A DNA stretch of 64,000 nucleotides. It comes from an uncultured Pelagibacteraceae bacterium (GTDB lineage Bacteria > Pseudomonadota > Alphaproteobacteria > Pelagibacterales > Pelagibacteraceae). The notes under the pieces are model-generated. The model saw nothing but the letters and a program-made list of their open reading frames with translations, was not told the DNA's origin and did no database searches. The stretch lies in contig CACOMZ010000002.1 of the NCBI GenBank assembly GCA_902628525.1, positions 29,372-93,371 of the forward strand, written 5' to 3'. Shown piece by piece: positions 26,684 to 44,000 of this stretch. The translations under genes were made by a program, and so were the position numbers. The number at the start of each line of letters is the position of its first letter. Position 1 is the first letter of the stretch.

Positions 26684-28036
26684 ATGTCAAATATTGTTAA
26701 AATAAATAAAAAAATTAAAAATTTTAAAAAAACAATAATAGTTCCTGGTGACAAAAGCTTAAGTATCAGATGGGTACTTTTTGCTTCACTAGCAAATGGT
26801 CAGTCCACAGCAAAAAATCTCTTAATATCTGAAGATGTCTTAGCAACAATAGAGGCGGTAAAAAAATTAGGTATTAAGGTAAAATTAAATCAAAATAATT
26901 GCAAGATATTTGGAAATGGAATTAATGGTTTTAAATATAAAAACAACTTAACAATTAACGCACAAAATTCAGGAACTCTAGGAAGACTTATTCTTGGCTT
27001 ATTGATTAATTCTCCAAAACCAATAAATTTAATCGGAGATAAAAGTTTATCGAAAAGAGATTTTAAAAGAGTTTCTGATCCCTTAAGTAAATTTGGAGCT
27101 AAATTTAGTTTAACAAAAAATAAATTTTTACCCCTAAAAGTTTATGGTTCTTCAAGATTAAAACCAATAAAATATTTTGAAAAGAAGGGTTCTGCTCAAT
27201 GCAAAAGTTCAATTATTTTTGCTGGAATGAGAACTGAAGGAACTACAAAAATTAAAGCTAAAAAATCAAGAGATCACACAGAACTATTATGTAAACATTT
27301 AGGTTTACCAATAAGTATTAAAAAAAACAAAAATTTTGATGAAATTAAAATTAGTAATGTAAAGAAAATTAATACCTTAAATTATAATATTCCCTCAGAT
27401 ATTAGCTCCAGTGCATTCTTTATAGTTTTAACCGCATTATCTAAAAATTCTGAACTTACTATAAAAAATATTAACATAAATCCATCAAGGATAGGAATTA
27501 TTACTATTTTAAGAAAAATGGGAGTGAAAATATTTTTTAAAAATCTAAAAATATATAAAGGTGAAAAAAAAGCAGATATTAAAGTAGTTAGTGCAAAAAA
27601 TATAAAGGCAATTAATTGTCCACCTAAACTAAATAGTGGAGCAATTGATGAATTTTTAGTTATTTTTCTTGTTGCAGCTAAAGCCAAAGGTATTTCTTAT
27701 TTTAGAAATCTAAGTGAGCTAAATCAAAAAGAAAGTCCAAGATTAAAATGGGCTAAAAAAATTTTGACTAATTTAGGGGTGAAAACTATAACAACAAATG
27801 ATTCCATAAAAATTTTTGGCAATCCCAATTTAAATTTAAATAAAAAAGTTATTATAAAAAATTATTTGAAAGATCACAGAGTTTTCATGACAAGTTTGAT
27901 CGCAGCATTATCATTTGGAGGTAAATGGACTATACATGACAAAGACTCCATAAACACCTCATTTCCAAGTTTTTTAAAAATTATTGAAGATTTAAAAAAT
28001 GATCAAAAGAAAAAATATTTTAAAGATAAGTATTGA
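26684..28036 (+). CDS. aroA: 3-phosphoshikimate 1-carboxyvinyltransferase
   Basis: VPGDKSLSIRWVLFASLANG, NSGTLGRLILGLL, DHRVFMTSLIAALSFGG. Confidence 0.94.
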   Translation: MSNIVKINKKIKNFKKTIIVPGDKSLSIRWVLFASLANGQSTAKNLLISEDVLATIEAVKKLGIKVKLNQNNCKIFGNGINGFKYKNNLTINAQNSGTLGRLILGLLINSPKPINLIGDKSLSKRDFKRVSDPLSKFGAKFSLTKNKFLPLKVYGSSRLKPIKYFEKKGSAQCKSSIIFAGMRTEGTTKIKAKKSRDHTELLCKHLGLPISIKKNKNFDEIKISNVKKINTLNYNIPSDISSSAFFIVLTALSKNSELTIKNININPSRIGIITILRKMGVKIFFKNLKIYKGEKKADIKVVSAKNIKAINCPPKLNSGAIDEFLVIFLVAAKAKGISYFRNLSELNQKESPRLKWAKKILTNLGVKTITTNDSIKIFGNPNLNLNKKVIIKNYLKDHRVFMTSLIAALSFGGKWTIHDKDSINTSFPSFLKIIEDLKNDQKKKYFKDKY

Positions 28037-28655
28037 TAGTCCCGCGGCTGCTGGTGCTGGAACACAAGCAAAACTAATTGGCAAACACTATAATTTGCTT
28101 GTATTGGATACAGGCCGTTGCTATCGCTATGTTGCCAACATTAAAATAACAGAGCCAGAAAAATTTAATTACAAATATATTAAAAAGAAAATTGACAAAT
28201 TAAAGATGAAAGATTTACAAAATAAAAAATTATCGTCTGATAAAGTTGCTACTGTAGCTTCAATAATTGCAAAGGATAAAGAAATTAGAAAATTGGTTCA
28301 TGGTTTTCAATTAAAATGTGCATACAACCCTCCCAAAAAATATAATGGATCATGTTTAGATGGAAGGGATATAGGCTCAGTAGTCGTAAAAAATGCAGAC
28401 ATAAAATTTTATATTACTGCCAATGTAAAAGTAAGAGCCATGAGGAGATATAAAGAGCTAAAAGCTAAAAATAAAAAAATAAACTACAAGGAAGTCTTAA
28501 AAAGCATTAAAAAACGCGATAAAAGTGACAAAAATAGAAAGATTTCACCACTTAAAAAAACTAAAGAAATGTACTTTATTAATTCGACGTCTTCGTCTAT
28601 AAGCAGCTGCTTTATGAAAATAAAAAAAATAATAGACAAAGAAATTAATAATTAA
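27999..28655 (+). CDS. cmk: Cytidylate kinase family protein with atypical P-loop
   Basis: ISIDSPAAAGAGTQAKLI...VLDTGRCYR...LDGRDIGSVVVKNADIKFYITANVKVRAMRR; between aroA and rpsA. Confidence 0.9.
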   Translation: MIKRKNILKISIDSPAAAGAGTQAKLIGKHYNLLVLDTGRCYRYVANIKITEPEKFNYKYIKKKIDKLKMKDLQNKKLSSDKVATVASIIAKDKEIRKLVHGFQLKCAYNPPKKYNGSCLDGRDIGSVVVKNADIKFYITANVKVRAMRRYKELKAKNKKINYKEVLKSIKKRDKSDKNRKISPLKKTKEMYFINSTSSSISSCFMKIKKIIDKEINN

Positions 28656-30382
28656 TGGAAATCTATAAAGATCTATCAAATCCAGCATCACAGGAATTCG
28701 AAAAATTACTTAACAGCCAGCTTTCGAAAATTAACATTGAAGAGGGTAAAATTATCGAAGGTAAAATAAACAAAATCACTGAAAAGTTTGTTTTTTTATT
28801 TGTCGAAGGTCTTAAATCAGAACCTGTTTTAGATATCAATGAATTAAAAAGTATGGGGCTATCAGAAAAAATTAAAATTGGAGAAACTATTTCAGTTCTT
28901 CTAGAGCGAATTGAAGATAAAAATGGCGAGGTTCTAGTTTCAGCTAGTAAAGCTCAAAAAATAAAAGGATGGGACAAATTAGTAGAAGCTTATGAAAAAA
29001 ATGAGCCCATAATGGGTAAGATAACATCTAAATGTAAAGGTGGTTGTATTGTTGAGCACATTGATACTGGATCTTTAATGTTTTTACCTGGATCTCAAAT
29101 TAGTGATAAACCATTAAAAGATATTAGCCATCTTATGAACGAACCACAAAAGTTTGCATTAATTAAACTTGATAAAGTTAGAGGCAATGCATGTGTATCT
29201 AGAAGAGAAATTATCTCTTCTTTCAAAAAAGAGGATAAAGCAAAAATTATCGAAAAATATAAAGTGGGTGACATTATTAAAAACGCTGAAGTAAAAGGAT
29301 ATAGTTCTTTTGGGTGTTTTTTTAATGTAAACGGTGAACTTGATGTTTTAGTTCATTTACAAGAAATTTCATATTCAAGGGTAAATCATCCAGATGAAGT
29401 TTTTAATATTGGTGAGAAACATGATCTTAAAGTAATTAGCGTTGATAAAGAAAAACTGCAGGTTGGATGTTCAGTAAAACAACTTTCTCCAGATCCTTTT
29501 GAACATATAGAAAACTACGAACTTAATAAAATCTATAAAGTCAAAGTTGTTAAATTAATGGATTTTGGTGCATTTTGTGAGTTAGAGCCTGGATTAACAA
29601 CCTTATTGCACTCAAGTGAATTAAGTTGGACAAAAAAAAATATTTCAGCAAAAAAAATGTTTAAAATTGGTGATGAAATTGACTGTATAATAACTGAAAT
29701 TGACAAAGATAAAAGACGGGTAGCTATTTCTCATAGGTTAACACAAGAAAATCCTTTTGAAACATTTGAAAAAAGATATCCTGTTGATAGCATTATTGAA
29801 GGTGAGGTAGTTAATAAAAATGAATACTCTTTATTTGTAAAAGTAAATGACTTAGACATAGATGCTTTTTTACATTGTAATGATCTCACATACTTAAACA
29901 ATGGTGAAGAGGAATTAACAAAATATAAAAAAGGCGATAAAATTAAAGTGAAAGTATTAGAAATTAAATCTTCTGAACAGAAAATAAGAGTTGGATTGAG
30001 ACAAACCCAACCAGATCCCTTTGATTGGTTTAAAGATAAATCTAAAAATCAAACTATAACAGTTAAGGTAGTTTCCACTGATAATAAAGGTTTGATAGTT
30101 AGACCTGAAGGTTGTGAAATGGATTTTCAAATTAAGAAATCAGCGATAGCAATTAATGCGGCAGATGCTAGACCAAGTAGATGGACTGGGGGAGAAAAAT
30201 TGGACTGTGCAATAGCAGATTTAGATATTAGTAAACGTAAAGTAAGTTTAAGCATAAAGTTACTTGAAGAGATCGAAAAAAAAGAGGCTTTAGAAAAATA
30301 TGGAACTGAAGATTCTGGTAAAAACTTGCCTTTTTCTTCGTTATCTGACGATTTAAAGAAAAAGAAAGAAGATAAACAGTAA
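28655..30382 (+). CDS. rpsA: 30S ribosomal protein S1
   Basis: Multiple S1 repeats (e.g. VVKLMDFGAFCELEPGLTTLLHSSELSW), downstream of cmk. Confidence 0.97.
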   Translation: MEIYKDLSNPASQEFEKLLNSQLSKINIEEGKIIEGKINKITEKFVFLFVEGLKSEPVLDINELKSMGLSEKIKIGETISVLLERIEDKNGEVLVSASKAQKIKGWDKLVEAYEKNEPIMGKITSKCKGGCIVEHIDTGSLMFLPGSQISDKPLKDISHLMNEPQKFALIKLDKVRGNACVSRREIISSFKKEDKAKIIEKYKVGDIIKNAEVKGYSSFGCFFNVNGELDVLVHLQEISYSRVNHPDEVFNIGEKHDLKVISVDKEKLQVGCSVKQLSPDPFEHIENYELNKIYKVKVVKLMDFGAFCELEPGLTTLLHSSELSWTKKNISAKKMFKIGDEIDCIITEIDKDKRRVAISHRLTQENPFETFEKRYPVDSIIEGEVVNKNEYSLFVKVNDLDIDAFLHCNDLTYLNNGEEELTKYKKGDKIKVKVLEIKSSEQKIRVGLRQTQPDPFDWFKDKSKNQTITVKVVSTDNKGLIVRPEGCEMDFQIKKSAIAINAADARPSRWTGGEKLDCAIADLDISKRKVSLSIKLLEEIEKKEALEKYGTEDSGKNLPFSSLSDDLKKKKEDKQ

Positions 30383-30398
30383 TTAAAGAAGATTAAAA

Positions 30399-30689
30399 TT
30401 GGCTATTGTAAAATCAAAGCTTTTAAAACAACTTTCTGACAATTATCCAAACTTTTTAAAAAAAGATTTAGAAAAATTTACAGATATAATTTTAAGTGAA
30501 ATTAAAAGAGCTCTTAAACGTGGAGAAGGAGTTGAATTAAGAAATTTTGGAACATTTAGAGTTAAAAAACAAAAAGCCTCGATAAGAAGAAATCCAAAAA
30601 CTGGCGAAAAAGTAGCAGTTCCTGAAAAAAAAGTAATATCTTGGAAAATGAGCAAAGAAATGTTTAAAAAGATCAACAATGAGGAATAA
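30399..30689 (+). CDS. ihfB: Integration host factor subunit beta
   Basis: GEGVELRNFGTFRVKKQKASIRRNPKTGEKVAVPEKKVISWKMSKEM; TTG start; after rpsA. Confidence 0.93.
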   Translation: MAIVKSKLLKQLSDNYPNFLKKDLEKFTDIILSEIKRALKRGEGVELRNFGTFRVKKQKASIRRNPKTGEKVAVPEKKVISWKMSKEMFKKINNEE

Positions 30690-31371
30690 ATTAGTATTTG
30701 TTGCGTGTGATACTTCAGATTTATCTCAAATTAAAAATATTTTAAAAAGTACTAAAAATAATAAACTAAAAATTATACCAAAATTTGGATTACAATTTTT
30801 CTACTCAAAAAATGGTAGAAAATTTTTAGAAAAGTTTAAAAATGATTTTTGGTTAGATTTAAAAATCAATGACATACCTCAGACAGCTCTCTCTGCGATA
30901 CATAGCATAAAAGATTTAAAAAAATGTAAATACATTACCGTTCATGCTAATGGTGGGCTTGATATGTTAAAAGCTGTTAAAAAAAAAGCCAAAGAAGTTA
31001 ATAAAAATTTAAAAATATTAGGAGTTACAGTTTTAACTAGTCTTAATGACAACTCTCTAAAAGAAATTGGTCATACTAATTCAGTTAAAAAACTTGTTTT
31101 CAAGCAAGCTGATATTATTCAAAAATCAGGATGTGATGGTTTAGTTTGTTCTGCAAAAGAAGCAAAATTCATTAGAAAAAAATATAAAAAATTATTTATC
31201 ATAACACCTGGAATAAGATTGCCAGGTGATGATTCTAATGATCAATCAAGAGTAATGACTCCTAACGATGCTTTTAAAAATAAAGTTTCAGGAATTGTTA
31301 TAGGAAGATCTCTTACAAAAGGTAATATAAAAAGTAATACTAAAAAACTTATTAATCATTTAACCAAATGA
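30679..31371 (+). CDS. pyrF: Orotidine 5'-phosphate decarboxylase
   Basis: FWLDLKINDIPQTALSAI (DxKxxDI-like), VTVLTSL, TPGIRLPGDDSNDQSRVMTPNDAF. Confidence 0.93.
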   Translation: MRNKLVFVACDTSDLSQIKNILKSTKNNKLKIIPKFGLQFFYSKNGRKFLEKFKNDFWLDLKINDIPQTALSAIHSIKDLKKCKYITVHANGGLDMLKAVKKKAKEVNKNLKILGVTVLTSLNDNSLKEIGHTNSVKKLVFKQADIIQKSGCDGLVCSAKEAKFIRKKYKKLFIITPGIRLPGDDSNDQSRVMTPNDAFKNKVSGIVIGRSLTKGNIKSNTKKLINHLTK

Positions 31372-31991
31372 TCAAAGGTTGTAAAATCTGTGGGATATCA
31401 GATCCTAAAACTTTAACTTATATTGTTGATCACCCTTACCCACCTCAATTTGTAGGTTTTATTGTAAATTGGAAAGCAAGTGCGCGTTATGTTGAATTTG
31501 ATAGATTAAAAGAACTTTTAAATATAGAAAAAAAAAAAAGTAAATACGTAGCCGTTATTGTAAAAAATGATGAGACTATACTTGAAAAAATAAAATATTT
31601 ACCTTTTGATTACTATCAGATGTATGACTGTTCTCCAGAAGAAATAATTAAAATTAAAGAAAAATATAGTAAAAAAATTATTGCTGCTCTTACTATTGAC
31701 AATAAAGAAGATATAAAAAAATATAAAGAGTATGAAAATATATCTGAGATAATTTTATTTGATAGTAAGGGTTATGAGAAATCAATGAGTTTTGATCATG
31801 ATTTGCTTGATGAGGTAGAAAATCACACAAAAAAAATGATCGCAGGAAATATAAAAATAGAAGATGTCACCAACTTTAAAAATAAACACTACATATTGGA
31901 TGTAAGTGGAAGTTTAGAAAGCTCAAAAGGAGTAAAAGATATTAATAAAATTGATAAGTTTCTAAATACAGTCCATAATATTAATTCTTGA
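31368..31991 (+). CDS. trpF: Phosphoribosylanthranilate isomerase (divergent)
   Basis: KGCKICGISDPKTLTYIVDHPYPPQFVGFI; directly upstream of trpB. Confidence 0.85.
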   Translation: MIKGCKICGISDPKTLTYIVDHPYPPQFVGFIVNWKASARYVEFDRLKELLNIEKKKSKYVAVIVKNDETILEKIKYLPFDYYQMYDCSPEEIIKIKEKYSKKIIAALTIDNKEDIKKYKEYENISEIILFDSKGYEKSMSFDHDLLDEVENHTKKMIAGNIKIEDVTNFKNKHYILDVSGSLESSKGVKDINKIDKFLNTVHNINS

Positions 31992-31998
31992 AATAAAT

Positions 31999-33192
31999 AT
32001 GACAAAAAATTCTTATAAAACAGGTCCAGATGAGCTAGGTTACTATGGCGAAGGTGATGCTGCAATGGGTGGTATGGCAGTTGGTGAAACTTTGATGCCT
32101 GCTTTACACGAGTTAAATCAAGGATTTGAAGAAGCAATAAAAGATAAAGAATTTTTAGATGAATTTGCTTATTATTGTAAACACTACATAGGAAGACCAT
32201 CCCCTTTATATTTTGCAGAAAATCTCACTAAAGAATTAGGAGGAGCTCGTATCTTTTTTAAACAAGAACACCTAAACCACACAGGCTCACACAAGATAAC
32301 AAATTCTTTGTTTCAAGTATTGCTTGCAAAAAGAATGGGCAAAAAAAGTTTAATTTGCGAAAGTGGTGCCGGCCAACACTATAGTGCTACTGCTGCAGTT
32401 GCTGCTAAATTTGGTATGCCTTTAATTGGAGTAATGGGAGAAGTAGATATAGCAAGAGTAAATCAAAATATAATTAAAGCAAAACACTATGGTGCAAAAT
32501 TAAAAGCAGTGCCAGGAACTTTGAAGGAAGCTATAACAGATGCAATTAAAACTTGGACCACAAATCCAGACTTTGCTTATATATGTGGATCAGTTGTTTC
32601 CTCTCATCCATTTCCAAAAATTGTTGCATTTGCACAAAGCATCATTGGAAGAGAAATAAGAGAGCAATCACTTGAGCAAGAAGGAAAATTACCAGATATG
32701 ATTGTTGGCTGTGTTGGTGGAGGAAGTAATTTTGCGGGAGCAATATATGATTTTCTTGATGAACCTAGTGTTTCTAAAATTGGGGTTGAGGCTCATGAAA
32801 CTGCAGCACTCTCAAATGGAACACCTGGAATTATGCAGGGAATGAAAACTTACATGCTGCAAACCGACGATGGTGCAAAATCTTTAGGAGGCATGAGTTT
32901 GGGCGCAGGTATAACTTACTTTTCTGTTGGTCCACTTCACTCTTATTTAAAAGATCAAAAAGCAGTTACTTATTCATCAGCTACTGATCAAGAAATGCTT
33001 GAGGCATATAAAATTATTGCAAGAACTGAGGGAATTTGCTCTGCATTAGAACCTATGGCAGCAGCTGCAGAGGTAATCTTTAGACAAGCAAAAAATAAAT
33101 CTAAAGATTATACTATTTGCTTGTCTCTATGTGGGCGTGGTGAAAAAGATTTGGATACTATCCAAGAACATATTGGTAAAGATTTTGAGTGA
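31999..33192 (+). CDS. trpB: Tryptophan synthase beta chain
   Basis: EHLNHTGSHKITNSLFQVLLAKRMGK, GAGQHY, GCVGGGSNFAG. Confidence 0.97.
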   Translation: MTKNSYKTGPDELGYYGEGDAAMGGMAVGETLMPALHELNQGFEEAIKDKEFLDEFAYYCKHYIGRPSPLYFAENLTKELGGARIFFKQEHLNHTGSHKITNSLFQVLLAKRMGKKSLICESGAGQHYSATAAVAAKFGMPLIGVMGEVDIARVNQNIIKAKHYGAKLKAVPGTLKEAITDAIKTWTTNPDFAYICGSVVSSHPFPKIVAFAQSIIGREIREQSLEQEGKLPDMIVGCVGGGSNFAGAIYDFLDEPSVSKIGVEAHETAALSNGTPGIMQGMKTYMLQTDDGAKSLGGMSLGAGITYFSVGPLHSYLKDQKAVTYSSATDQEMLEAYKIIARTEGICSALEPMAAAAEVIFRQAKNKSKDYTICLSLCGRGEKDLDTIQEHIGKDFE

Positions 33193-33988
33193 ACGATTTA
33201 AAAAAATATTTGAAAATAATAATCCAAAAACAAAACTAATATCCTATTTTGTTGGATGCTACCCTACTCCAGACGAAAGTTTTAAACTAATCAAGGAAGC
33301 AATTGACAATGGAGTCTCCATTTTAGAAATTGGATATTGTACTTCGGAGGCTTCGGCTGAAGGACCTGTAATCAAAGCTGCTCATGATCATGTATTAAAA
33401 AGTGGATATTCTTTAAACGATACTATTAAACTTATTGATAAAATAAGGTCTTACAACAAAGATGTAGGGATCCTTTTGATGGGCTACATTGCTAATCTAT
33501 ATAAATACCCAATAAAACAATTTGTAGATGATATTAAAAAAGCAGGCGCAGATGCTGTACTAGTAGTTGATGCACCGCATGAACTAAAAGAGGAAAATGA
33601 ATTAAGAGATGCTTTAAATGATAATGGATTATCATTAATAAAATTAGCAGCACCTACAACAGATCAAAAAAGGCTTGAAGATATTATTGAAATCTCTTCT
33701 GGTTTTATTTATCAAGTAAACGTCAGTGGGGTTACTGGAGTAAAGTCGGCAAATGAAACTGATGTTACAAATTTTGTTCAAAGAATCAAAAAACTAACAA
33801 GTATTCCTGTTTGTTCAGGATTTGGAATTAAAAGCCCAGAAGATGCTAAAAAAGTAGCTAATAGTGGCTGTGATGGAGTTATTGTTGGATCAACATTTGT
33901 CAAATATATTCAGGATAACTTAAGTGCCCCAGATTTAACACAAAGTTTTGGCAAACAAGTTAAAAGTTTTTCAGAGGTACTAAAATAA
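33186..33988 (+). CDS. trpA: Tryptophan synthase alpha chain
   Basis: RFKKIFENNNPKTKLISYFVGCYPTPDESF; VSGVTGVKSA; likely start near the trpB stop (TTG about 33186) rather than 33131. Confidence 0.94.
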
Positions 33989-33989
33989 A

Positions 33990-34925
33990 ATGGTCAATTG
34001 GATAACAAAAATTATTAAAGCAGGTGAAAAAATCAAAACTGCTATAAGAGAAAGATCCACTAAAGCTGATATTGCAAATAGTGACTGGACTAGCTGTTGC
34101 CGTGGACCCATATTGAAAAAAGATTTAGAAGCTAACCTGTGGGTATGTCCAGATTGTAATAAACATCATTATATATCTCCTACAAATAGATTTAATTTAA
34201 TGTTTGGTAAAGATGGATGGAAAAAAATTGAGAGTCCTCACCCTCCACCAGATCCATATAAATGGGAAGATACAAAAAAATATGTTGATCGCTTAAAGGA
34301 TGCTAAAAAAATTACTGGTCAAGATAATGCTATATTATCTTGTGAAGCTAAAATTAATAACATTGATGTAGTTGTAAGTGCTGTAGATTTTAAATTTATT
34401 GGTGGAAGTATTTCAATGGCAGAAGGTGAAAATGTTTTGGCTGCCGTTCAAACTGCATTAAATAAAAAATGTCCCTACATTTTTGTAAGTGCATCAGGTG
34501 GCATGCGTATGATGACCAATATACTAAGTTTGATGCAAATGACTCGTATGACGGTTGGGATTAATGCTCTACGTGAAAAAAATCTTCCTTATATTGTTGT
34601 GGCAACATCACCAACTACAGGTGGTTTAACTGCATCAATTGCAAGTTTATCAGACATTTGTATTGGAGAAACAGGAGCAACATGGGCATTTGCTGGCCGG
34701 AGAATTGTAGAAAATACGGAAAAAAGTCAACTTCCAGAAAATTTTCAAACTGTAGAATGGGCCAAAGATAAAGGTGGGCAAATAGATTTAATCTGTGATC
34801 GAAAAGATATTCATCCAACCATTGGAACTTTATTATCAATATTGTTAAAGAAGAATTCTGATATAAGTGCTGAACAAAATGAAACTTCAGAAGATTCTCA
34901 GCAACTTTCAAAAGTTGCATCCTAA
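33990..34925 (+). CDS. accD: Acetyl-CoA carboxylase carboxyltransferase subunit beta
   Basis: SASGGMRMMTNILSLMQM, PTTGGLTASIASLSDI. Confidence 0.95.
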   Translation: MVNWITKIIKAGEKIKTAIRERSTKADIANSDWTSCCRGPILKKDLEANLWVCPDCNKHHYISPTNRFNLMFGKDGWKKIESPHPPPDPYKWEDTKKYVDRLKDAKKITGQDNAILSCEAKINNIDVVVSAVDFKFIGGSISMAEGENVLAAVQTALNKKCPYIFVSASGGMRMMTNILSLMQMTRMTVGINALREKNLPYIVVATSPTTGGLTASIASLSDICIGETGATWAFAGRRIVENTEKSQLPENFQTVEWAKDKGGQIDLICDRKDIHPTIGTLLSILLKKNSDISAEQNETSEDSQQLSKVAS

Positions 34926-36144
34926 GGAAATAGACCTATCACTTGATAGAATTAAAAATCTTTGTGAAAAACTAGGAAATCCGCAAAACAAAATTAAAGC
35001 AATATCAATTGTAGGAACAAATGGTAAAAATTCTACAATTCAAGCTGCTTACTCAATTCTTAAAGAGGCAAGTTTTGAATGTAATGTTTACACAAGTCCA
35101 CATATTCAAAAAATTAATGAAAGGTTTATTTTCAGTAACCAGGAATTATATGATGATGAGTTAGCTGATTTATTGGAAGAAGTTGAAAAAATTAATAATA
35201 ATCAACCAATCACGGTGTTTGAGATGTTATCAGCTTGTTTTTTTTATAAAGCAGCGCAGTATCCAGGTAACATTAACTTAATTGAGAGTGGATTGTTTCA
35301 TCGTTTTGATGCTGTCAATATTCTAGAAACTAATCTAGCAAGTATTGTTACATCTATAAGCAAAGACCATCTAGATTGGCTTCCAAAAGATAAACAAACA
35401 ATCGAACAAATTGTATTTGAAAAAACATCTACACTTTTAAACTCAAACATTATTGTAGCCAAACAAAGTACTAAAGAGACGATGGATTGTATTAAAAAAA
35501 CTATCTCTCAAAATAAATCTAATAAAGTGTTTTTTAATAATGATTTCAGTTATTCAGTAAATGAAAATGATTTCTTCTACTATGAAGATAAATTTGGCGG
35601 ATTAAAACTTCCTATGCCTAATGTACTTGGTCAATATCAATTAGAAAATATATCTACTGCAATAGCAACTCTTAGAACTTTAGATCTTAAAATAAGGGAT
35701 GAACACATAAAAAAAGGTATTAAAAATATATCTAGCTTAGCTAGGCTTCAGGAAATTAAATCTGGTAAATTAAAAGAATTAGTTAAAAACAATAGATTTA
35801 TAGTAGATGGGAGCCACAACGAAGGTGGTGCTAAAGCATTAAATGAATATCTTCAAAGCTTGGATTGTAACAAACATGTTATAATTGGGATGATGGCAAA
35901 CAAAGAACATGAAAAATATATCAGTTACTTCAAAGATATTTCTTCCATAACAACTATAGATTTAAAAACTCAGGCTAACTCTATTAGTGGAAAAGATTTG
36001 AAAGAAAAATTTAAAAGTATGACCAATGTTCAATATCAACCAGATATCAAGCAAGCGATTAAATCAATTGATTTAAAAGAAGGTGATCTTTTATTAATTA
36101 CAGGATCTTTGTATGGGGCTGCTGAAGTATTAAGTTTAAATTAA
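34867..36144 (+). CDS. folC: Folylpolyglutamate/dihydrofolate synthase
   Basis: VGTNGKNSTIQAAYSIL (Mur-ligase-like P-loop), YTSPHIQKINERF, VDGSHNEGGAKAL. Confidence 0.93.
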   Translation: MLNKMKLQKILSNFQKLHPKEIDLSLDRIKNLCEKLGNPQNKIKAISIVGTNGKNSTIQAAYSILKEASFECNVYTSPHIQKINERFIFSNQELYDDELADLLEEVEKINNNQPITVFEMLSACFFYKAAQYPGNINLIESGLFHRFDAVNILETNLASIVTSISKDHLDWLPKDKQTIEQIVFEKTSTLLNSNIIVAKQSTKETMDCIKKTISQNKSNKVFFNNDFSYSVNENDFFYYEDKFGGLKLPMPNVLGQYQLENISTAIATLRTLDLKIRDEHIKKGIKNISSLARLQEIKSGKLKELVKNNRFIVDGSHNEGGAKALNEYLQSLDCNKHVIIGMMANKEHEKYISYFKDISSITTIDLKTQANSISGKDLKEKFKSMTNVQYQPDIKQAIKSIDLKEGDLLLITGSLYGAAEVLSLN

Positions 36145-36458
36145 ATATTTTTATCTAAAAATTCTTTCATATGGCTTTCAGGAACTCCACCAACTTTTCT
36201 ATCTACTTCAACACCTTTTTTATAGATGATAACTGTTGGGACACCTCTAATGCCAGCAGCTGAACCTGTGTTAATTCCACCATCTTCAACATCGGCATAA
36301 TAAAAATTAGCTTTATCTTTATACTCATCAGATAATTTATCTAAAATGGGCTTCATAACACGGCATGGTTGACACCAAGATGCTGAGAACTGGATTATAG
36401 ATATGTCCTCATTCTTAATTTTACTTTCAAAATCTTCATCTTTAAAATCTATAAGCAT
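36141..36458 (-). CDS. trxA: Thioredoxin (WCQPC active site)
   Basis: QFSASWCQPCRVMKPILDKL, GVPTVIIYKKG. Confidence 0.93.
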   Translation of the reverse strand: MLIDFKDEDFESKIKNEDISIIQFSASWCQPCRVMKPILDKLSDEYKDKANFYYADVEDGGINTGSAAGIRGVPTVIIYKKGVEVDRKVGGVPESHMKEFLDKNI

Positions 36459-36492
36459 AAATCCTTTCTATAAATTACTTTACCAAAGTCAA

Positions 36493-37929
36493 CTAGGCAA
36501 TTTCATATTTTTTTTCTATAGACATAATAAATTCATTTATTTCATCTAATTTTTTTAATTCTTCCTCGTCATCTCGATTAGAAGCCTGGTCTCGCAAAGT
36601 ATCAATTTCTTGATAAGCCATTCCAATAGTTTGCCACTTTTCTCTATTTTTACTTAAAATTCGTCTAGCAATTTCTCTTTTTATATTTTTATATAAATCT
36701 GGTGGCAAAATATGTGGCGCTTCTTGATAAATAATTTTTTGGCCAAACCAACTACATCTTTTATCTTGAAACTTATCCAACATTCTTAATTTATCTTCCC
36801 AAGAAGAACTATGCCAAGTTTTAAATAATTGGTTGTCTTTGTTTGGAATAAATTTTTTATATAAAGTTTCCTCTGGTAATAAATCTTCCTGAGTTTGTGT
36901 TTGAGCTTTTTCTTCAGCTGCTTCTCTATTAATGATTTGAATATTTTTGCAAAAATTTTCACTATTTCTAACCATTTTTGCTCTTTTTTGAATGGTTTCT
37001 AAATCTAAATCAGCATATGCCTTCTCTTTTAATGCAAACTTTTTATCTAAAACAACAGGGGCTTTATTAGTTTTGATTACTCTAAGTGCTTTTGGACTAA
37101 ATTTTTTCAAGTAAACTTTAAGATCATTTATTGACAAGTTTAATAATGGCTCAGGATTTCTTCTTAAATCAAATAAATATCCCCAAGATGCATATGAAGG
37201 ATGGAAACAATGATCTGGGTGCAATGTTGAAACAAGATACATCATATTTTTTCCTTTAACATTTTCAAAGATTGAATAAATACCTTCACTTTTTAAAATA
37301 GTTTCAACGCTATTTTTTGTCGATGTGCTTAAAAAATTCTCCCAATTGTCTTTGTGTTTATCTTTTATAATTCTGAGAATTTTTAAGCTTGTGAATGCAT
37401 CATGATAAGCTGTGTGTTGTTGAGATGTATCAAATCCTTGTTGTCTAGCTAGGCCTTCTAAAGCAAGACTTTCATTGCCTGCATCTGTCAATTCAGTCTT
37501 TAATGTTTCGGGATTTAAAGTTTGAGCCACTCTTGCAACATGTAAACCATCATGTTCTTTATTAGGTGATGAATGCGTGATATAAGGATATCTGTTTCCT
37601 TTGAAAAAATTAAAATGAAACATACGCCTATCAAAATTTAAATTACTCCAACCCATAAACAATGCTGGTGCAGCCTTTGAGAAGAAGTTTTCTACAGCTC
37701 CTAAAAAATCATAATGCGAATAATTACCTTTTGTAAGTAAATCAATACTTGTTGAGTTAACTAATAAGGCCTTTGCACTTGGAACCTCACCCTCGGGCAT
37801 TCTGCCACGAATATTTAGCTTGCCAATTTCTTTCAAGTTTTTATCGACAACGACAGCACCTACTTCAATTATTGAGCCCCAAATTGTGCTATTTGTTGTT
37901 TCTGTATCGTAAATTACTATTTTATCCAT
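36493..37929 (-). CDS. sbcB: Exodeoxyribonuclease I
   Basis: IYDTETTNS...IIEVGAVV, GWSNLNFDRRMFH, HTAYHDAFTSLKI (DEDDh), C-terminal ExoI-like region. Confidence 0.9.
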   Translation of the reverse strand: MDKIVIYDTETTNSTIWGSIIEVGAVVVDKNLKEIGKLNIRGRMPEGEVPSAKALLVNSTSIDLLTKGNYSHYDFLGAVENFFSKAAPALFMGWSNLNFDRRMFHFNFFKGNRYPYITHSSPNKEHDGLHVARVAQTLNPETLKTELTDAGNESLALEGLARQQGFDTSQQHTAYHDAFTSLKILRIIKDKHKDNWENFLSTSTKNSVETILKSEGIYSIFENVKGKNMMYLVSTLHPDHCFHPSYASWGYLFDLRRNPEPLLNLSINDLKVYLKKFSPKALRVIKTNKAPVVLDKKFALKEKAYADLDLETIQKRAKMVRNSENFCKNIQIINREAAEEKAQTQTQEDLLPEETLYKKFIPNKDNQLFKTWHSSSWEDKLRMLDKFQDKRCSWFGQKIIYQEAPHILPPDLYKNIKREIARRILSKNREKWQTIGMAYQEIDTLRDQASNRDDEEELKKLDEINEFIMSIEKKYEIA

Positions 37930-37935
37930 AAATTC

Positions 37936-38622
37936 CTAAGTTAAATACGATAGCTCATTAAATTTTTTTAATCTTCCCAAAAACAAATTTTGATAAACAA
38001 CTAAATCATGCCCTTGAATTTTAAACTCTTGGAATATTTTATCTACTGTGCAAACTAAAATTACACAAGAAGTGATATTGGAGTTATACACAATATTATG
38101 GGCTAATGAATATGCGCTTGTTTGAAGAAGCCATGAGTCGATATACTCAGCTTTTTTCGGTTTATTACTTTGTTTAAAGTCAATTATTGTTTCCTTTCCC
38201 TCATACACTCCAACACAATCAGCCGTACCTGCATATTTCTCTGGGTAATAAAGAGTGCATTCCACACCCCAAATTTCATCCAATCTATTTTTCAAACCTT
38301 TTTCTATGATTTCTTTAGCCATTAATTTGTATTGTTCATTATCCTCAAAAAAACTTAAATTTTCTCTTCCAAGTAAATAAGACTCTAAATAGTTGTGCAT
38401 TTGAGATCCTCTACTACTAGCTGCTTTTGTTATCGCTTCAGCTTCTTTTTGACCTGTTCTTTCACGCCAATTAGCGAGAGCAGCTTTATCTTCCTCTGAT
38501 TTTGTTACATCAAGTATTGAGGTAACACTTGGTAATTTTTTCTCCCCTAAAAGATATCTTCTAATTCCATCTACAGTTGCTCTTGAAGATGTAGGATAAT
38601 CGTATTTTTTATTCCATTTCAT
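37936..38622 (-). CDS. RecB/MGME1-like PD-(D/E)XK exonuclease
   Basis: LPSVTSIL...RGSQMHNYLESYL...AGTADCVGVYEGKETIIDFKQSNKPK...LQTSAYSLAHN, the characteristic order for this nuclease family. Confidence 0.78.
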   Translation of the reverse strand: MKWNKKYDYPTSSRATVDGIRRYLLGEKKLPSVTSILDVTKSEEDKAALANWRERTGQKEAEAITKAASSRGSQMHNYLESYLLGRENLSFFEDNEQYKLMAKEIIEKGLKNRLDEIWGVECTLYYPEKYAGTADCVGVYEGKETIIDFKQSNKPKKAEYIDSWLLQTSAYSLAHNIVYNSNITSCVILVCTVDKIFQEFKIQGHDLVVYQNLFLGRLKKFNELSYLT

Positions 38623-38697
38623 GATGAATCAAGTGGTACCTTGTACTATTATGTTTAATAATTATCTACTAGATATGACAAAAAGTTAAATTAAATT

Positions 38698-39867
38698 ATG
38701 GAAGCAATTTTAGGAGTAATAGTAGGATTTGTAGCATTTGGTATTGTTTGGTTTTATTTACTAAAACCAAAAAACAATCAGGCATCAGTTGATGAACTAA
38801 AATTAAAAGAAGAAGAATTAAAAAAATCTCAAATAGATTTGGCTACAAAGGAGGCAGAGATAAAAGCTGCAGAGGATGCAAAAAAAGACTTAACAAAACA
38901 ACTTGACGATAAAAAATTAGAGGTAACAAATCTTTATAAGAAAGTTGATGGTATCGTTGAAGGAATAGGTGAGTACAAGTCAATTTCTGAAAAAGCAATT
39001 AACAAACATGATGAAGCAATAGCACGGCATACAAATTGGTGGGAAAAACTCACAACTAACATCACATATCAAGGAAAATTTAATCAAGAAATTTTAGAAA
39101 ATCTTTTAGAAAGTGCAAATCTTGTAAAGGATAGAGATTTTTTTCCACAAAAAAAACAAACAACTTATGACATTGATGGTAATGAAGAGAAAGATGTAAT
39201 TCCTGATATGCTTGTAAAATTTCCAGAGAGAAATTATATCATTGATGCTAAAATGTCTTTAACTCATTGGACAAAATACATTAATGAAAAAGATGAAAAT
39301 CGAAAAAAACAATATCTTAAAGATCATATAGCATCAGTAAGAAATCACTTATTTGGACCCAAAGGTTTAGCTAAGAAAAATTATAACAAACTATATGGAA
39401 TAAAGTCATTGCAGTCTGTTATTGTTTTTTTCCCAGCATCAAGCTTATATTCTGTAACACTTGATGCTGATAAAACCCTTCAAACAGAGGCTCTTAAAGC
39501 AAACTTTATTTTATCGTCCCCTACTGAGTTGTTGAATATGATTAAGGTTTTTGAGCAAATCAAAAGTGAAAAGAAGCAAATTGAAAATATTAGTAAGATC
39601 ATAACCTCTGCTAGTAAGATATTTGATAAATACTCAGATGTTAAAACTGCGATTAAAGGAGCGCTTCAATCATATAAAACTCATGCAAATCAACTACAAA
39701 GCTTAGTTACAAAATCTTGGGGCTCACAAGGATTAGAGAAGCAAATAAAAAAACTTGAAGATGAACATGGCGTAATACCTGGAAAACAAATTCCTGAAAT
39801 ACCACCTGAACAAGCAAATATTACTGAGGTTACAGATCCAGAGGAAGACAAAGATAAGTTAAACTGA
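38698..39867 (+). CDS. rmuC: DNA recombination protein RmuC
   Basis: N-terminal TM, coiled coil, then DMLVKFPERNYIIDAKMSLTHWTKYI nuclease-fold core. Confidence 0.92.
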   Translation: MEAILGVIVGFVAFGIVWFYLLKPKNNQASVDELKLKEEELKKSQIDLATKEAEIKAAEDAKKDLTKQLDDKKLEVTNLYKKVDGIVEGIGEYKSISEKAINKHDEAIARHTNWWEKLTTNITYQGKFNQEILENLLESANLVKDRDFFPQKKQTTYDIDGNEEKDVIPDMLVKFPERNYIIDAKMSLTHWTKYINEKDENRKKQYLKDHIASVRNHLFGPKGLAKKNYNKLYGIKSLQSVIVFFPASSLYSVTLDADKTLQTEALKANFILSSPTELLNMIKVFEQIKSEKKQIENISKIITSASKIFDKYSDVKTAIKGALQSYKTHANQLQSLVTKSWGSQGLEKQIKKLEDEHGVIPGKQIPEIPPEQANITEVTDPEEDKDKLN

Positions 39868-39985
39868 TCAAATGTAATTAGCTTTTATAATTAAAATATT
39901 CTTTTTTATTGCAGGAATTGTAACTTTATACGCAATAGGCAGGAACCTTGATAATATCAAAATTATACTAATTTATAGGAAATAC

Positions 39986-40678
39986 TTACTTTTTAGAAAG
40001 TAATTTTACCATTTTTCTAAGGCCTATTTTTTTACTTGATGACTTAGAAATCATCATACAAGCCTCTGACCTTAGTATCTCTCCATCGTTTAAAATACGT
40101 AGATTATTTGCTTTTAAAGTTTCTCCAGTAGACGTGATATCGGTAATTATTTCTGAAGAGCCTGTAAAAGGATAAGCTTCAGTTGCACCCAAACTATCAA
40201 TTAATTTAAATTGGGTAACACCCTTTGAAAATAAAAATTGCCTTGTTAAATTTGGATATTTTGTTGCAACTCTTAATCTTTTCTTTTTCTTATCTTTAAA
40301 TTCAAATGCAATTTCCTCTAAATCTGCAATAGTTTGCACATCTATCCATGGATCAGGAATTGCAACTACTAATATGGCCTTACCAAAATTGTATCTTTTT
40401 AAAACATTAATTTTTTTTTGAGTATTTATTTCACTCTCTTTCAATAAATCAAAACCAGAAAAACCTATATCTAAAGATCCATCTCCAAGTCTTTCAATGA
40501 TCTCTCTAGCATGAAGATACAAAATCTTAATATTTTTATATTGTTTAATTGATCCTAAAAGGTCTCTTTCTCCTCTTTCAGAAATTAGATTTAATTTATT
40601 TTTTTTAAAAATATTTAAAACATCTTTTCTAAGTCTGCCTTTGCTAGGGATTCCAATATTTAAAATATTTTTTGTCAT
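39986..40678 (-). CDS. hisG: ATP phosphoribosyltransferase, short catalytic form
   Basis: IGIPSKGRLRKDVLNIF, GSLDIGFSGFDLL, ITDITSTGETLKAN; paired with hisZ. Confidence 0.94.
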   Translation of the reverse strand: MTKNILNIGIPSKGRLRKDVLNIFKKNKLNLISERGERDLLGSIKQYKNIKILYLHAREIIERLGDGSLDIGFSGFDLLKESEINTQKKINVLKRYNFGKAILVVAIPDPWIDVQTIADLEEIAFEFKDKKKKRLRVATKYPNLTRQFLFSKGVTQFKLIDSLGATEAYPFTGSSEIITDITSTGETLKANNLRILNDGEILRSEACMMISKSSSKKIGLRKMVKLLSKK

Positions 40679-41730
40679 TAGTAATTTAAGTTTAAAGCTG
40701 CACCTACTGCTGGGGTAAGTTTTTTTGATCCTAAATCTGAAATTAGACCATCATAACGACCACCATTAATAATATTTTTTAATGAGTTTTTAGATTTAAT
40801 ATCAATTTTAAAAACCATTCCTGTATAATATTCTAATTGCCTTCCAAAGGATGCTGAAAATACTACATTTAATTTTGAAACCTTGTTATTAGAGATTGGA
40901 AAATATTTTTGATCTACAACTAAATTTATTCTGTTTTTTTTAAAAAATTTATTTAACTCTATTGATGCTTTATTTATTGGACATTTAATTTTTAAAAAAT
41001 CTTTTATTACTTTTGAAACATTTTTTCCTTTACTGGTTCTTCTAGGATCTTTGATTTTATGATCAAATCTTTTTAATATTTCATTAATTGTTCTTCCTGC
41101 TACAATGTTGGATAAATCTTCTTTAAGCATTTTCACGTAACGCTTTTTATCAATTTCTACAATTGTTGGATCAACATCTGAATTAGTTTCTAATCTTTTT
41201 AATAAATCGTTAAAATATTCTTCTCTCCAGAAGTGCCTAGATAATCTTAGCTTCCATCTCTTTGGAATATCCAATTTTGAAATTAATAAATTGAATATTT
41301 CAACATTTCCAATAGTGAGTCTTCCTGAAGAATATTTGATATTTTGAAGTGATTTAAGAGATGTATTAATAATTTCTTTATCATCATTTTTTTCATCCTT
41401 AGATCCTAAAATTTCAAATCCAATTTGATTTCTAATAATTGAATCTTGTTTGTTTTGTGATTTTCGATAAGCTTGACCGCTATAAAAAATTTTTTCCTTA
41501 CCTTTTAAATTATTTTCTAAATATCTTAAACAAGATGCAATTGTTAAATCTGGTCTTAGACATAACTCTTTTCCATTTTGATCAGAAAAAGAGAAGATAA
41601 ACTTTCTAAAATTTTCTCCTGATCTTTGAACGATATGATTAGCCTCAATTACTGAGGGTAAATCAATATATTTAAAACCCTTAGATTTTACAGATCTAAG
41701 GATATTTTCAGATAAGTTTTTTGACTTCAT
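40678..41730 (-). CDS. hisZ: ATP phosphoribosyltransferase regulatory subunit (HisRS paralog)
   Basis: Class II aaRS-like fold, LRPDLTIASCLRYL, between hisG and hisS. Confidence 0.88.
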   Translation of the reverse strand: MKSKNLSENILRSVKSKGFKYIDLPSVIEANHIVQRSGENFRKFIFSFSDQNGKELCLRPDLTIASCLRYLENNLKGKEKIFYSGQAYRKSQNKQDSIIRNQIGFEILGSKDEKNDDKEIINTSLKSLQNIKYSSGRLTIGNVEIFNLLISKLDIPKRWKLRLSRHFWREEYFNDLLKRLETNSDVDPTIVEIDKKRYVKMLKEDLSNIVAGRTINEILKRFDHKIKDPRRTSKGKNVSKVIKDFLKIKCPINKASIELNKFFKKNRINLVVDQKYFPISNNKVSKLNVVFSASFGRQLEYYTGMVFKIDIKSKNSLKNIINGGRYDGLISDLGSKKLTPAVGAALNLNY

Positions 41731-43102
41731 CGATTAAATTTTCTTTTGGAAATGTTTTGTTGTTTTTGCCCTTAACACCTTTGAGACTTTTTATAGTTAC
41801 TGTGTTTTCATTAAATTCATTTTCGCCACATATTATTGCAACATCTAACTCACGTTTATTTGCTAGGGTTAGTTGCTTACCTAAATTTTTCTTTGTATCT
41901 AAAAAAATTTCAGCATTGATATTATTATTTCTTAATAGATCTAAAATTTCATAGTAATTTTTAAGATATTTTTCATCCATTACACAAACTAAAACAGGTT
42001 TTTGACTATCTACTTTTATTTGATCTAATTGCATTAAAGCGAATAACAGTCGATCAACTCCAAAACTAATTCCGGTGCCTGGAATATCCACACCTTTAAA
42101 TCTTGAAATTAATTTTGCATAGGCTCCTCCAGAACAAATACTGCCTATATCAACCTCTTTACCTTTGTTATTTGTAACTTTAAAATTTAGGTTCGTTTCA
42201 ACAATGAAATCTGAATAATAAGCCAATCCCCTAACAATTGTAAAATTTGTTTTGACCTGATTTAAATTTGAGCTGTAACCCAATACTTCAAATACTTGTT
42301 CTAATTCCTTTATACCTTTTTGAGACAATGGATTTTTTAATGTTTCTTTTAATTCTTTTAAATCTTTAATTTTTAGAAAATTAAGTATTTCGGAAGCTTG
42401 TTCATCGTTTAAATCTGCACCTTTAGTAATTGCACCACTTATATCTTTTCTCTCTTTTTTAAGCAGATCTTCAACACCTTTTAAACCAAAACCTGGTTTA
42501 TCTAATTTATCAATTGCCCTAATTACTTTTACTTGCTTTTCTTCTGATATTTTTAAATCATCAATTAATCCTTCTACTATTTTTCTATTGCTGATGTTAA
42601 TTGTAAATTGGTCTTTTTTTAGTCCACAATCTAATAAAGCACTTGATATTAAATTACAAAGTTCAGCATTTGCTTGGGCAGGATTAACATTTCCTACGAT
42701 ATCAAAATCTGCTTGCATAAATTCCCTGTACCTTCCGTTACCAGCCTTCTCATTTCTAAAGACATTTTGAATAGCATACCTTTTAAAGATTGATGGAAGC
42801 TCTTGATTATTTTGTGCAACAAATCTAGCTAGTGGGCTTGAAAGATCATACCTAAGAGTAATACTTTTTTCTCCATCCTGAAATGAGAATACATCAGACA
42901 TAGGATTAGCATCATCTTCTGCCAAAAAAGATCCTATATTTGAACTTATCTCAAACGAAGGGGTTTCCAGAGCCTCTGCTCCAAATTTAATGAAATTATT
43001 CTCAATAGCTTTTAAAAGCTTTTTTTTGAGAAGAAGTTTCTTATCCCAACGATCCTCAAATCCCGAGGGTAATCCAGGAATTAATTTTTTTTCTTTATTC
43101 AT
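41708..43102 (-). CDS. hisS: Histidyl-tRNA synthetase
   Basis: GLPSGFEDRW, motif 2 RNEKAGNGRYREFMQADFDIVG, GISFGVDRLLFAL; ATG at 43102 because the longer ORF start overlaps tRNA-His. Confidence 0.94.
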   Translation of the reverse strand: MNKEKKLIPGLPSGFEDRWDKKLLLKKKLLKAIENNFIKFGAEALETPSFEISSNIGSFLAEDDANPMSDVFSFQDGEKSITLRYDLSSPLARFVAQNNQELPSIFKRYAIQNVFRNEKAGNGRYREFMQADFDIVGNVNPAQANAELCNLISSALLDCGLKKDQFTINISNRKIVEGLIDDLKISEEKQVKVIRAIDKLDKPGFGLKGVEDLLKKERKDISGAITKGADLNDEQASEILNFLKIKDLKELKETLKNPLSQKGIKELEQVFEVLGYSSNLNQVKTNFTIVRGLAYYSDFIVETNLNFKVTNNKGKEVDIGSICSGGAYAKLISRFKGVDIPGTGISFGVDRLLFALMQLDQIKVDSQKPVLVCVMDEKYLKNYYEILDLLRNNNINAEIFLDTKKNLGKQLTLANKRELDVAIICGENEFNENTVTIKSLKGVKGKNNKTFPKENLIDEVKKLI

Positions 43103-43106
43103 TTTT

Positions 43107-43181
43107 TGGTACCCGGGCTGAGAGTCGAACTCAAACTTAAAGTTCCACAAACTTCCGTGCTAACCATTACACCACCCGGGC
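43107..43181 (-). tRNA. tRNA-His (GTG)
   Basis: Full cloverleaf: GCCCGGG acceptor, D-arm GTGT/GCAC, anticodon arm GAAGT-TTGTGGA-ACTTT, T-arm TTGAG-TTCGACT-CTCAG, encoded CCA. Confidence 0.95.
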
Positions 43182-43237
43182 ATATCCTATTTGTTTTTAT
43201 CTTATTTTATGTGGATTTAAAATTATAATATAAATAA

Positions 43238-43253
43238 ATAGCCTACTGGCTAT
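43238..43253. promoter_or_regulatory. Palindrome ATAGCC-TACT-GGCTAT upstream of the tRNA-His/hisS cluster
   Basis: Perfect 6-bp arms; a minus-strand TATAAT lies at 43222-43227. Confidence 0.3.
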
Positions 43254-43358
43254 GGAAACAGTTTCTGTGAGTACTACTAAAATTCTTTATGTATGTAATA
43301 TTTATTTTCATAAACAGTCTTTTAGACAAAAAAAATTTATATTCAAGGTATAAATAAA

Positions 43359-43398
43359 AAAGGACGTTTATCTAATTTGTAGATAAAACGCCCTTTAA
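43359..43398 (-). terminator. Rho-independent terminator after cspA
   Basis: Minus strand AAAGGGCGTTTTATCTACAAATTAGATAAACGTCCTTTTTTA: long stem followed by T-run. Confidence 0.85.
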
Positions 43399-43411
43399 AA
43401 TTATTTATAAA

Positions 43412-43624
43412 TTAGTCTATTTTTTTTAAATTAACCGCAGAAGGACCTTTGGGACCATCCTCTAATGTGAATTCAAGTTTATCACCCTCATTTAGAAATC
43501 TCATACCTGCAGCCTTAACTGCCGAAGCATGTACAAAGGCGTCTTTTTCTTTGTCATCTCTTTCAATGAAGCCATATCCCTTTTTACCATTATACCATTT
43601 AATTTTTCCTTGTAGTGTACTCAT
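43412..43624 (-). CDS. Cold-shock domain protein
   Basis: GKIKWYNGKKGYGFIERDDKEKDAFVHASAV. Confidence 0.96.
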   Translation of the reverse strand: MSTLQGKIKWYNGKKGYGFIERDDKEKDAFVHASAVKAAGMRFLNEGDKLEFTLEDGPKGPSAVNLKKID

Positions 43625-43703
43625 CTTATTTCTTAGTCCTTTTGTTATTTTTTATATCTTTAAGGTAATTTTTTTTAAGATTATTTCAAGGTGAAACTTG
43701 TTG

Positions 43704-43778
43704 TGGTGGCTGAGGAAGGATTCGCACCTCCGACACAAGCCTTTTCAGGGCTCTGCTCTACTCCTGAGCTACTCAGCC
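43704..43778 (-). tRNA. tRNA-Phe (GAA)
   Basis: GGCTGAG acceptor, D-arm GCTC/GAGC, anticodon arm GAGCC-CTGAAAA-GGCTT, encoded CCA. Confidence 0.95.
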
Positions 43779-43782
43779 TTAT

Positions 43783-43998
43783 TTATCCCCTAAAGATGAT
43801 TCTTCCCTTAGTAAGATCGTAAGGTGTCATTTGAACAGTTACATTATCACCTTGGAGAACTCTAATTCTGTTTTTTCTTAACTTACCAGCTGTATGGGCA
43901 GTTACAGTATGTCCATTTTCTAATTTTACTCTAAACATAGCGTTTGGAAGTAAGTCTATAACCATACCTTTAAATTCCAGTAAGTCTTGTTTTGACAA
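43783..43998 (-). CDS. infA: Translation initiation factor IF-1
   Basis: [61 protein letters not shown]. Confidence 0.97.
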
Positions 43999-44000
43999 AT

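Follow-up and report, generated by a model that had tools for sequence, protein, structure and literature searches.

A phage-type, MGME1-like nuclease beside exonuclease I in the putative addAB slot of SAR11: a candidate substitute for RecJ and ExoVII

We examined a window of 64,000 nucleotides from an uncultured Pelagibacteraceae bacterium, in which the interval between folC and hisG holds a thioredoxin gene (trxA) and three nuclease-family genes: sbcB for exonuclease I (ExoI), a gene that we call nuc (protein, Nuc) and a divergent rmuC (Table 1). The genome is 67.6% complete (32 contigs), and gene absences were therefore judged on its relatives; since the closest of these among the collected genomes belong to Pelagibacteraceae, it was taken as a SAR11 genome.

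Table 1. Genes and flanks of the trxA-hisG locus in the window.
Feature	Position	Strand	Basis and remarks
pyrF-trpF-trpB-trpA-accD-folC	30679..36144	+	ORFs; conserved left flank of the putative addAB slot; gene order common to other Pelagibacterales genera
trxA, thioredoxin	36141..36458	-	PF00085 8e-21; last gene of the nuc-sbcB-trxA run
sbcB, predicted exonuclease I (DEDDh, 3'-5' ssDNA exonuclease)	36493..37929	-	478 aa; PF08411, NCBIfam ExoI
nuc, predicted MGME1-like PD-(D/E)XK nuclease of phage type (Nuc)	37936..38622	-	228 aa; PHROG 298
rmuC, divergent	38698..39867	+	389 aa; PF02646 4e-40
hisG	39986..40678	-	ORF
hisG-hisZ-hisS, right flank of the slot	39986..43150	-	ORFs; flank recurs in many same-genus genomes

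The nuc gene lies 6 bp upstream of sbcB in the window, and 6-10 bp is the commonest spacing across genomes. The median dN/dS values of nuc, sbcB and trxA (0.044, 0.037 and 0.037, respectively) indicate strong purifying selection; because nuc was moreover found in 206 of the 250 genomes of a second sample of the window's genus (35 of the 37 near-complete ones), its ORF is not a chance one. A prophage remnant was ruled out: the slot has no other recognisable phage genes and nuc is near-core. In the left flank, the trpB and trpA products (window 31999-33988) share only ~35% and 28% identity with their counterparts in most compared genomes, some of the same genus among them, and 84% and 71% with those of one genome (G026); the genes around them are closer to same-genus genomes than trpB/trpA are. 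A xenologous replacement of trpB/trpA is likely.

The window SbcB combines PF00929 and PF08411 (4e-16), i.e. the DEDDh exonuclease domain and the ExoI C-terminal domain, with intact DEDDh residues (D8, E10, D100, H172 and D177). It matched the NCBIfam ExoI model over nearly its full length, but its 105 bits fall short of the equivalog cut-off (260), and we regard it as a divergent ExoI homologue with a presumed ExoI function. It matches PHROG 19080; a tblastn search against named phages gave no match. The window RmuC carries the RmuC domain (Table 1). In other strains a co-directional, unrelated-looking RmuC occupies the position, and BLASTP detected no similarity between the window RmuC and the one at the same place in the complete genome G003; whether rmuC belongs to a functional unit is uncertain.

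An earlier note on this DNA had proposed that addAB was lost in this lineage, and that its slot was taken over by the three nuclease genes as one replacement module. The loss itself was borne out: the alphaproteobacterial AddB model matched none of the 147 Pelagibacterales genomes searched and the AddA model none above its cut-off, while AddB was matched in 133 of 144 genomes of the class. The AddA matches under the cut-off were mostly frames of 680-750 aa that look like UvrD. Neither AddAB nor RecBCD was found elsewhere (AddA/AddB in the 147 genomes; a RecC query in G003). That AddAB/RecBCD are lost in SAR11 is already known, as the absence of RecBCD, RecF and MutSL has been published (PMC12374537). 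A PDDEXK_1 match in the window's own genome (L001:1378-2283, contig C8) was considered as AddB and ruled out, being a 301-aa Cas4-like PD-(D/E)XK protein. This protein lies beside small unknown proteins, and it is related (2.6e-30) to a Cas4-like protein in the slot of another genome, G103.

The identity of the slot, also assumed by the earlier note, is supported by gene order. In particular, the published Brucella operon lists addB and addA ahead of a hypothetical gene and trx, and it ends in folC (PMC9491525), and two AddB-lacking genomes (loci L361, L363) of f9, a family outside the order with ~28% GC, have an NTP-transferase gene, sbcB, trxA and a convergent folC; trxA and folC are likewise convergent in the window. 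By this gene order ExoI occupies the addAB interval.

We found SbcB in 137 of the 147 Pelagibacterales genomes, in all ten genera sampled. It adjoins trxA and folC in most of the order's loci examined, and RmuC accompanies the SbcB locus in g2 and in a second family. ExoI is scarce in the class (9 of 144 genomes), being present in 5 of the 11 AddB-lacking genomes vs 4 of the 133 others (Fisher p 1e-4, uncorrected for relatedness). Because the f9 genomes, which belong to another order, also carry ExoI between the NTP-transferase gene and trxA/folC, ExoI is, to judge from gene order, an old occupant of the addAB interval. The trio as such was not found to be ancestral in distant alphaproteobacteria, and only ExoI at the slot is common to another order. 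Our guess is that f9 corresponds to the HIMB59/AEGEAN-169 group. In the ExoI tree, f9 and Pelagibacterales fell into one group of 27 sequences (90/88), within which a single clade of the 25 Pelagibacterales sequences was neither shown nor rejected (p-AU 0.09) and the inner branching was poorly supported. ExoI in the addAB interval of f9 is possibly a rare change shared with SAR11, or else a parallel swap.

The resemblance of the 228-aa nuclease to MGME1 that the earlier note had pointed out proved to be specific. Nuc matched the PHROG 298 exonuclease at 1.6e-48; in Pfam, its 15.5-bit match to PDDEXK_1 did not reach the cut-off. Its relatives occur in 918 phage records, the best of them in pelagiphages (43-44% identity over the whole length to HTVC023P and HTVC027P), and in two phages they lie in the replication region near DNA polymerase A. 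A Nuc-family profile searched against the PDB gave human MGME1 as the sole match (E=5e-23). With the AlphaFold model of Nuc (pLDDT 93), the first nine Foldseek matches were MGME1 (TMq 0.69-0.74), and a wide gap separated them from the next fold (3e-13 vs 5e-6). Nuc has the RecB-family PD-(D/E)XK core with the H, E, GxxD, DxK and QxxxY motifs; H76, E121, D135, D148, K150, Q167 and Y171 were invariant in 53 sequences and could be aligned to human MGME1, and the first five correspond to its catalytic residues H180, E223, D238, D251 and K253 (PMC6237815; PDB 5zyt-5zyw, 8xa9). Unlike MGME1, to which it is ~25% identical, Nuc is bacterial, is encoded in an operon-like run with ExoI and has no mitochondrial leader. 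The four cysteines of the Cas4 Fe-S cluster were not conserved in A1/A3, and Cas4 models matched weakly. Sequence and fold model together thus define Nuc as a phage-type, MGME1-like PD-(D/E)XK nuclease, with a predicted nuclease activity.

Among the same 147 genomes, nuc was present in 71 of the 76 genomes of the window's genus and in none of the other genera, except for a fragment in one genome of the second family (G087, contig C25). This fragment lies beside a genus-type sbcB with 86% identity, and is probably misbinned or contaminating. The nuc-lacking genomes of the genus that were checked differ from each other: G024 and G044 have kept RecJ; G103 has neither Nuc nor RecJ, with a Cas4-like nuclease in the slot; and in G078 and G101 the matching trxA, sbcB and nuc are all missing, probably through assembly gaps. 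The genus Nuc sequences tested grouped in a single clade (95/93) that was separate from the 46 viral sequences. Nuc is of the same family as the PHROG 298 pelagiphage exonucleases but is chromosomal, near-core, vertically kept and in a separate clade, and it appears as a later, genus-level gain.

This distribution does not bear out a trio that arrived together: ExoI and RmuC are older, and the MGME1-like gene was added afterwards in a single genus. We consider it improbable that Nuc, ExoI and RmuC replace AddAB directly as one module, even if they occupy its chromosomal slot, AddAB too has RecB-family nuclease domains, and in the class as a whole ExoI occurs mainly where AddB is lacking. AddAB is missing order-wide, and since Nuc is confined to one genus it would not be the AddAB substitute; in addition, the rmuC of the window is an exchangeable allele, no helicase is encoded at the slot, and the fold similarity of Nuc to AddAB is weak (TMq about 0.33-0.36).

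The gene sets around sbcB/rmuC differ among the same-genus genomes G040, G082, G024, G103 and G044 (L117-L121), where S24-type regulators, Cas4-like nucleases, an RNaseH/AAA_12 helicase, 525-530-aa ATPase-like proteins, and MTase-like and helicase-like proteins are swapped in; these surroundings look like a hotspot of gene exchange. The trxA-hisG slot could accordingly be a small defence hotspot: its products (Nuc, RmuC and divergent ExoI alleles) would break down phage or mobile DNA that enters the cell, and the phage-type nuclease would have been kept to exclude other phages. Such a role would fit the swapped slots of G040 and G082 (S24-type regulator, Cas4-like nuclease and AAA_12 helicase) and of G103 (MTase-like and helicase-like proteins plus its Cas4-like nuclease), as well as the action of RmuC domains in phage defence in the Pseudomonas Shield system (PMC10270631). 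PADLOC models of reverse-transcriptase-associated SbcB and RmuC also matched (8e-57 and 6e-35), and these systems likewise have adjacent ExoI and RmuC families; but the models also catch ordinary SbcB and RmuC relatives, and no reverse transcriptase was seen in the translations of the ORFs of window 28000-44000, which include the slot. Furthermore, nuc and sbcB are both near-core genes whose dN/dS resembles that of housekeeping genes, and ExoI is near-universal in the order, where it stands with trxA. We therefore hold the defence explanation to be unlikely, if less so than the single module.

The loss of other nucleases from the genus offers a different context for Nuc. RecJ was found in 27 of 30 near-complete genomes outside the genus vs 15 of 75 inside (Fisher p 2e-11, uncorrected for relatedness), and in 35 of 250 genomes of the genus with a profile that included its own RecJ. 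ExoVII was found in 18 of the 30 outside vs 0 of the 75 inside; none of the 76 genomes of the genus had it, nor did g5 and g6, which have no Nuc, and it was found in g2-g4 and in the second family. One genome outside the genus (G090) is an exception, being without RecJ, ExoVII and Nuc. Where RecJ is present, in the window's genus and two other genera, recJ follows glpX; in G003, a small GIY-YIG-like gene stands after glpX, the usual downstream gene comes next, and recJ is missing. When genomes were grouped by nuc identity, the window's own group (83-99%) had no RecJ in any of its about 28 genomes, the 58-65% group had it in a few and the 52-59% group in nearly all, a pattern from which the RecJ losses are seen to be clade-wise and more than one. 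Strict complementarity of nuc and RecJ within the genus was dropped, as the anticorrelation was not significant (p 0.09).

Searches of the complete 1.2-Mb genome G003 with E. coli queries detected no RecJ, ExoVII, RecF, RecN, SbcD, RecC, MutSL or RuvABC. G003 has RecA, RecR, RecG, PriA, UvrD, full-length PolA, ExoI and Nuc, and a weak match to RecO.

MGME1 is a bidirectional ssDNA exonuclease that is faster from the 5' end (PMC11551736). From the homology of Nuc to MGME1 and the co-loss of RecJ and ExoVII, we consider it the most probable account that Nuc is a domesticated phage ssDNA exonuclease that replaces RecJ/ExoVII, and not AddAB, beside ExoI, a reading to which we give slightly more belief than doubt. 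ExoI, with RmuC in Pelagibacterales, would have taken the addAB slot early in the history of the order or before it; the stem of the window's genus would later have gained a phage replication-type MGME1-like nuclease, whose gene became fixed immediately upstream of sbcB. The prediction for Nuc is that it binds single-stranded DNA at a free end and degrades it bidirectionally, more rapidly from the 5' end, and ExoI would complement it by degrading 3'-5'. Together with helicases (UvrD, RecG, PriA) and with RecA, RecR and RecO, the two would trim ssDNA ends and flaps, a task that RecJ and ExoVII perform in other bacteria. Once Nuc was there, RecJ would have become dispensable and been lost more than once, and ExoVII would have gone from the whole genus. 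The predicted role of Nuc resembles that of RecJ and ExoVII (XseA) in ssDNA end trimming with 5'-3' capacity; their folds are unrelated to Nuc, and both are lost from the window's group. We infer the polarity of Nuc, its substitution for RecJ/ExoVII, its partnership with ExoI and the order of events, and phylogenetically the support consists of few events: one gain of Nuc and a handful of losses.

Nuc could also work as MGME1 does in mitochondria, by 5' flap trimming and degradation of linear DNA in replication, with the RecJ losses due to drift or island turnover. MGME1 processes flaps in mtDNA replication (PMC4222359), and the location of the pelagiphage relatives near DNA polymerase A agrees with such a role. 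As recJ adjoins a variable glycosyltransferase region, island turnover may contribute to its loss, and the loss of ExoVII from g5/g6 took place without Nuc. On the other hand, the PolA kept by G003 includes the 5' nuclease region, and the genus with Nuc is the only one in which RecJ loss was found to be heavy. We rate this replication role as rather doubtful, a shade below the defence explanation.

The substitution of RecJ/ExoVII by Nuc and ExoI, our preferred reading, is part of a wider proposal: a phage MGME1-type exonuclease, domesticated in the founding lineage of the main SAR11 genus, would with ExoI be the main ssDNA end-processor and displace RecJ/ExoVII, and, separately, the ExoI-for-addAB swap would be a rare change common to SAR11 and a second AT-rich order. 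We put this forward tentatively, with a little less belief than doubt. Among open-access papers we found none that deals with ExoI in the addAB slot, with an MGME1-like gene specific to this genus or with a connection between that gene and RecJ/ExoVII loss. If true, the swap would offer a character for SAR11 and HIMB59-like groups, whose position in the alphaproteobacterial tree is disputed. SAR11 recombines heavily though it is without RecBCD/AddAB and RecF (PMC12374537), and for the preparation of DNA ends for RecA in these bacteria the near-core, phage-type MGME1-like exonuclease next to ExoI provides a concrete candidate. A viral replication enzyme, related to one that mitochondria use, would then have been turned into core machinery of the host.
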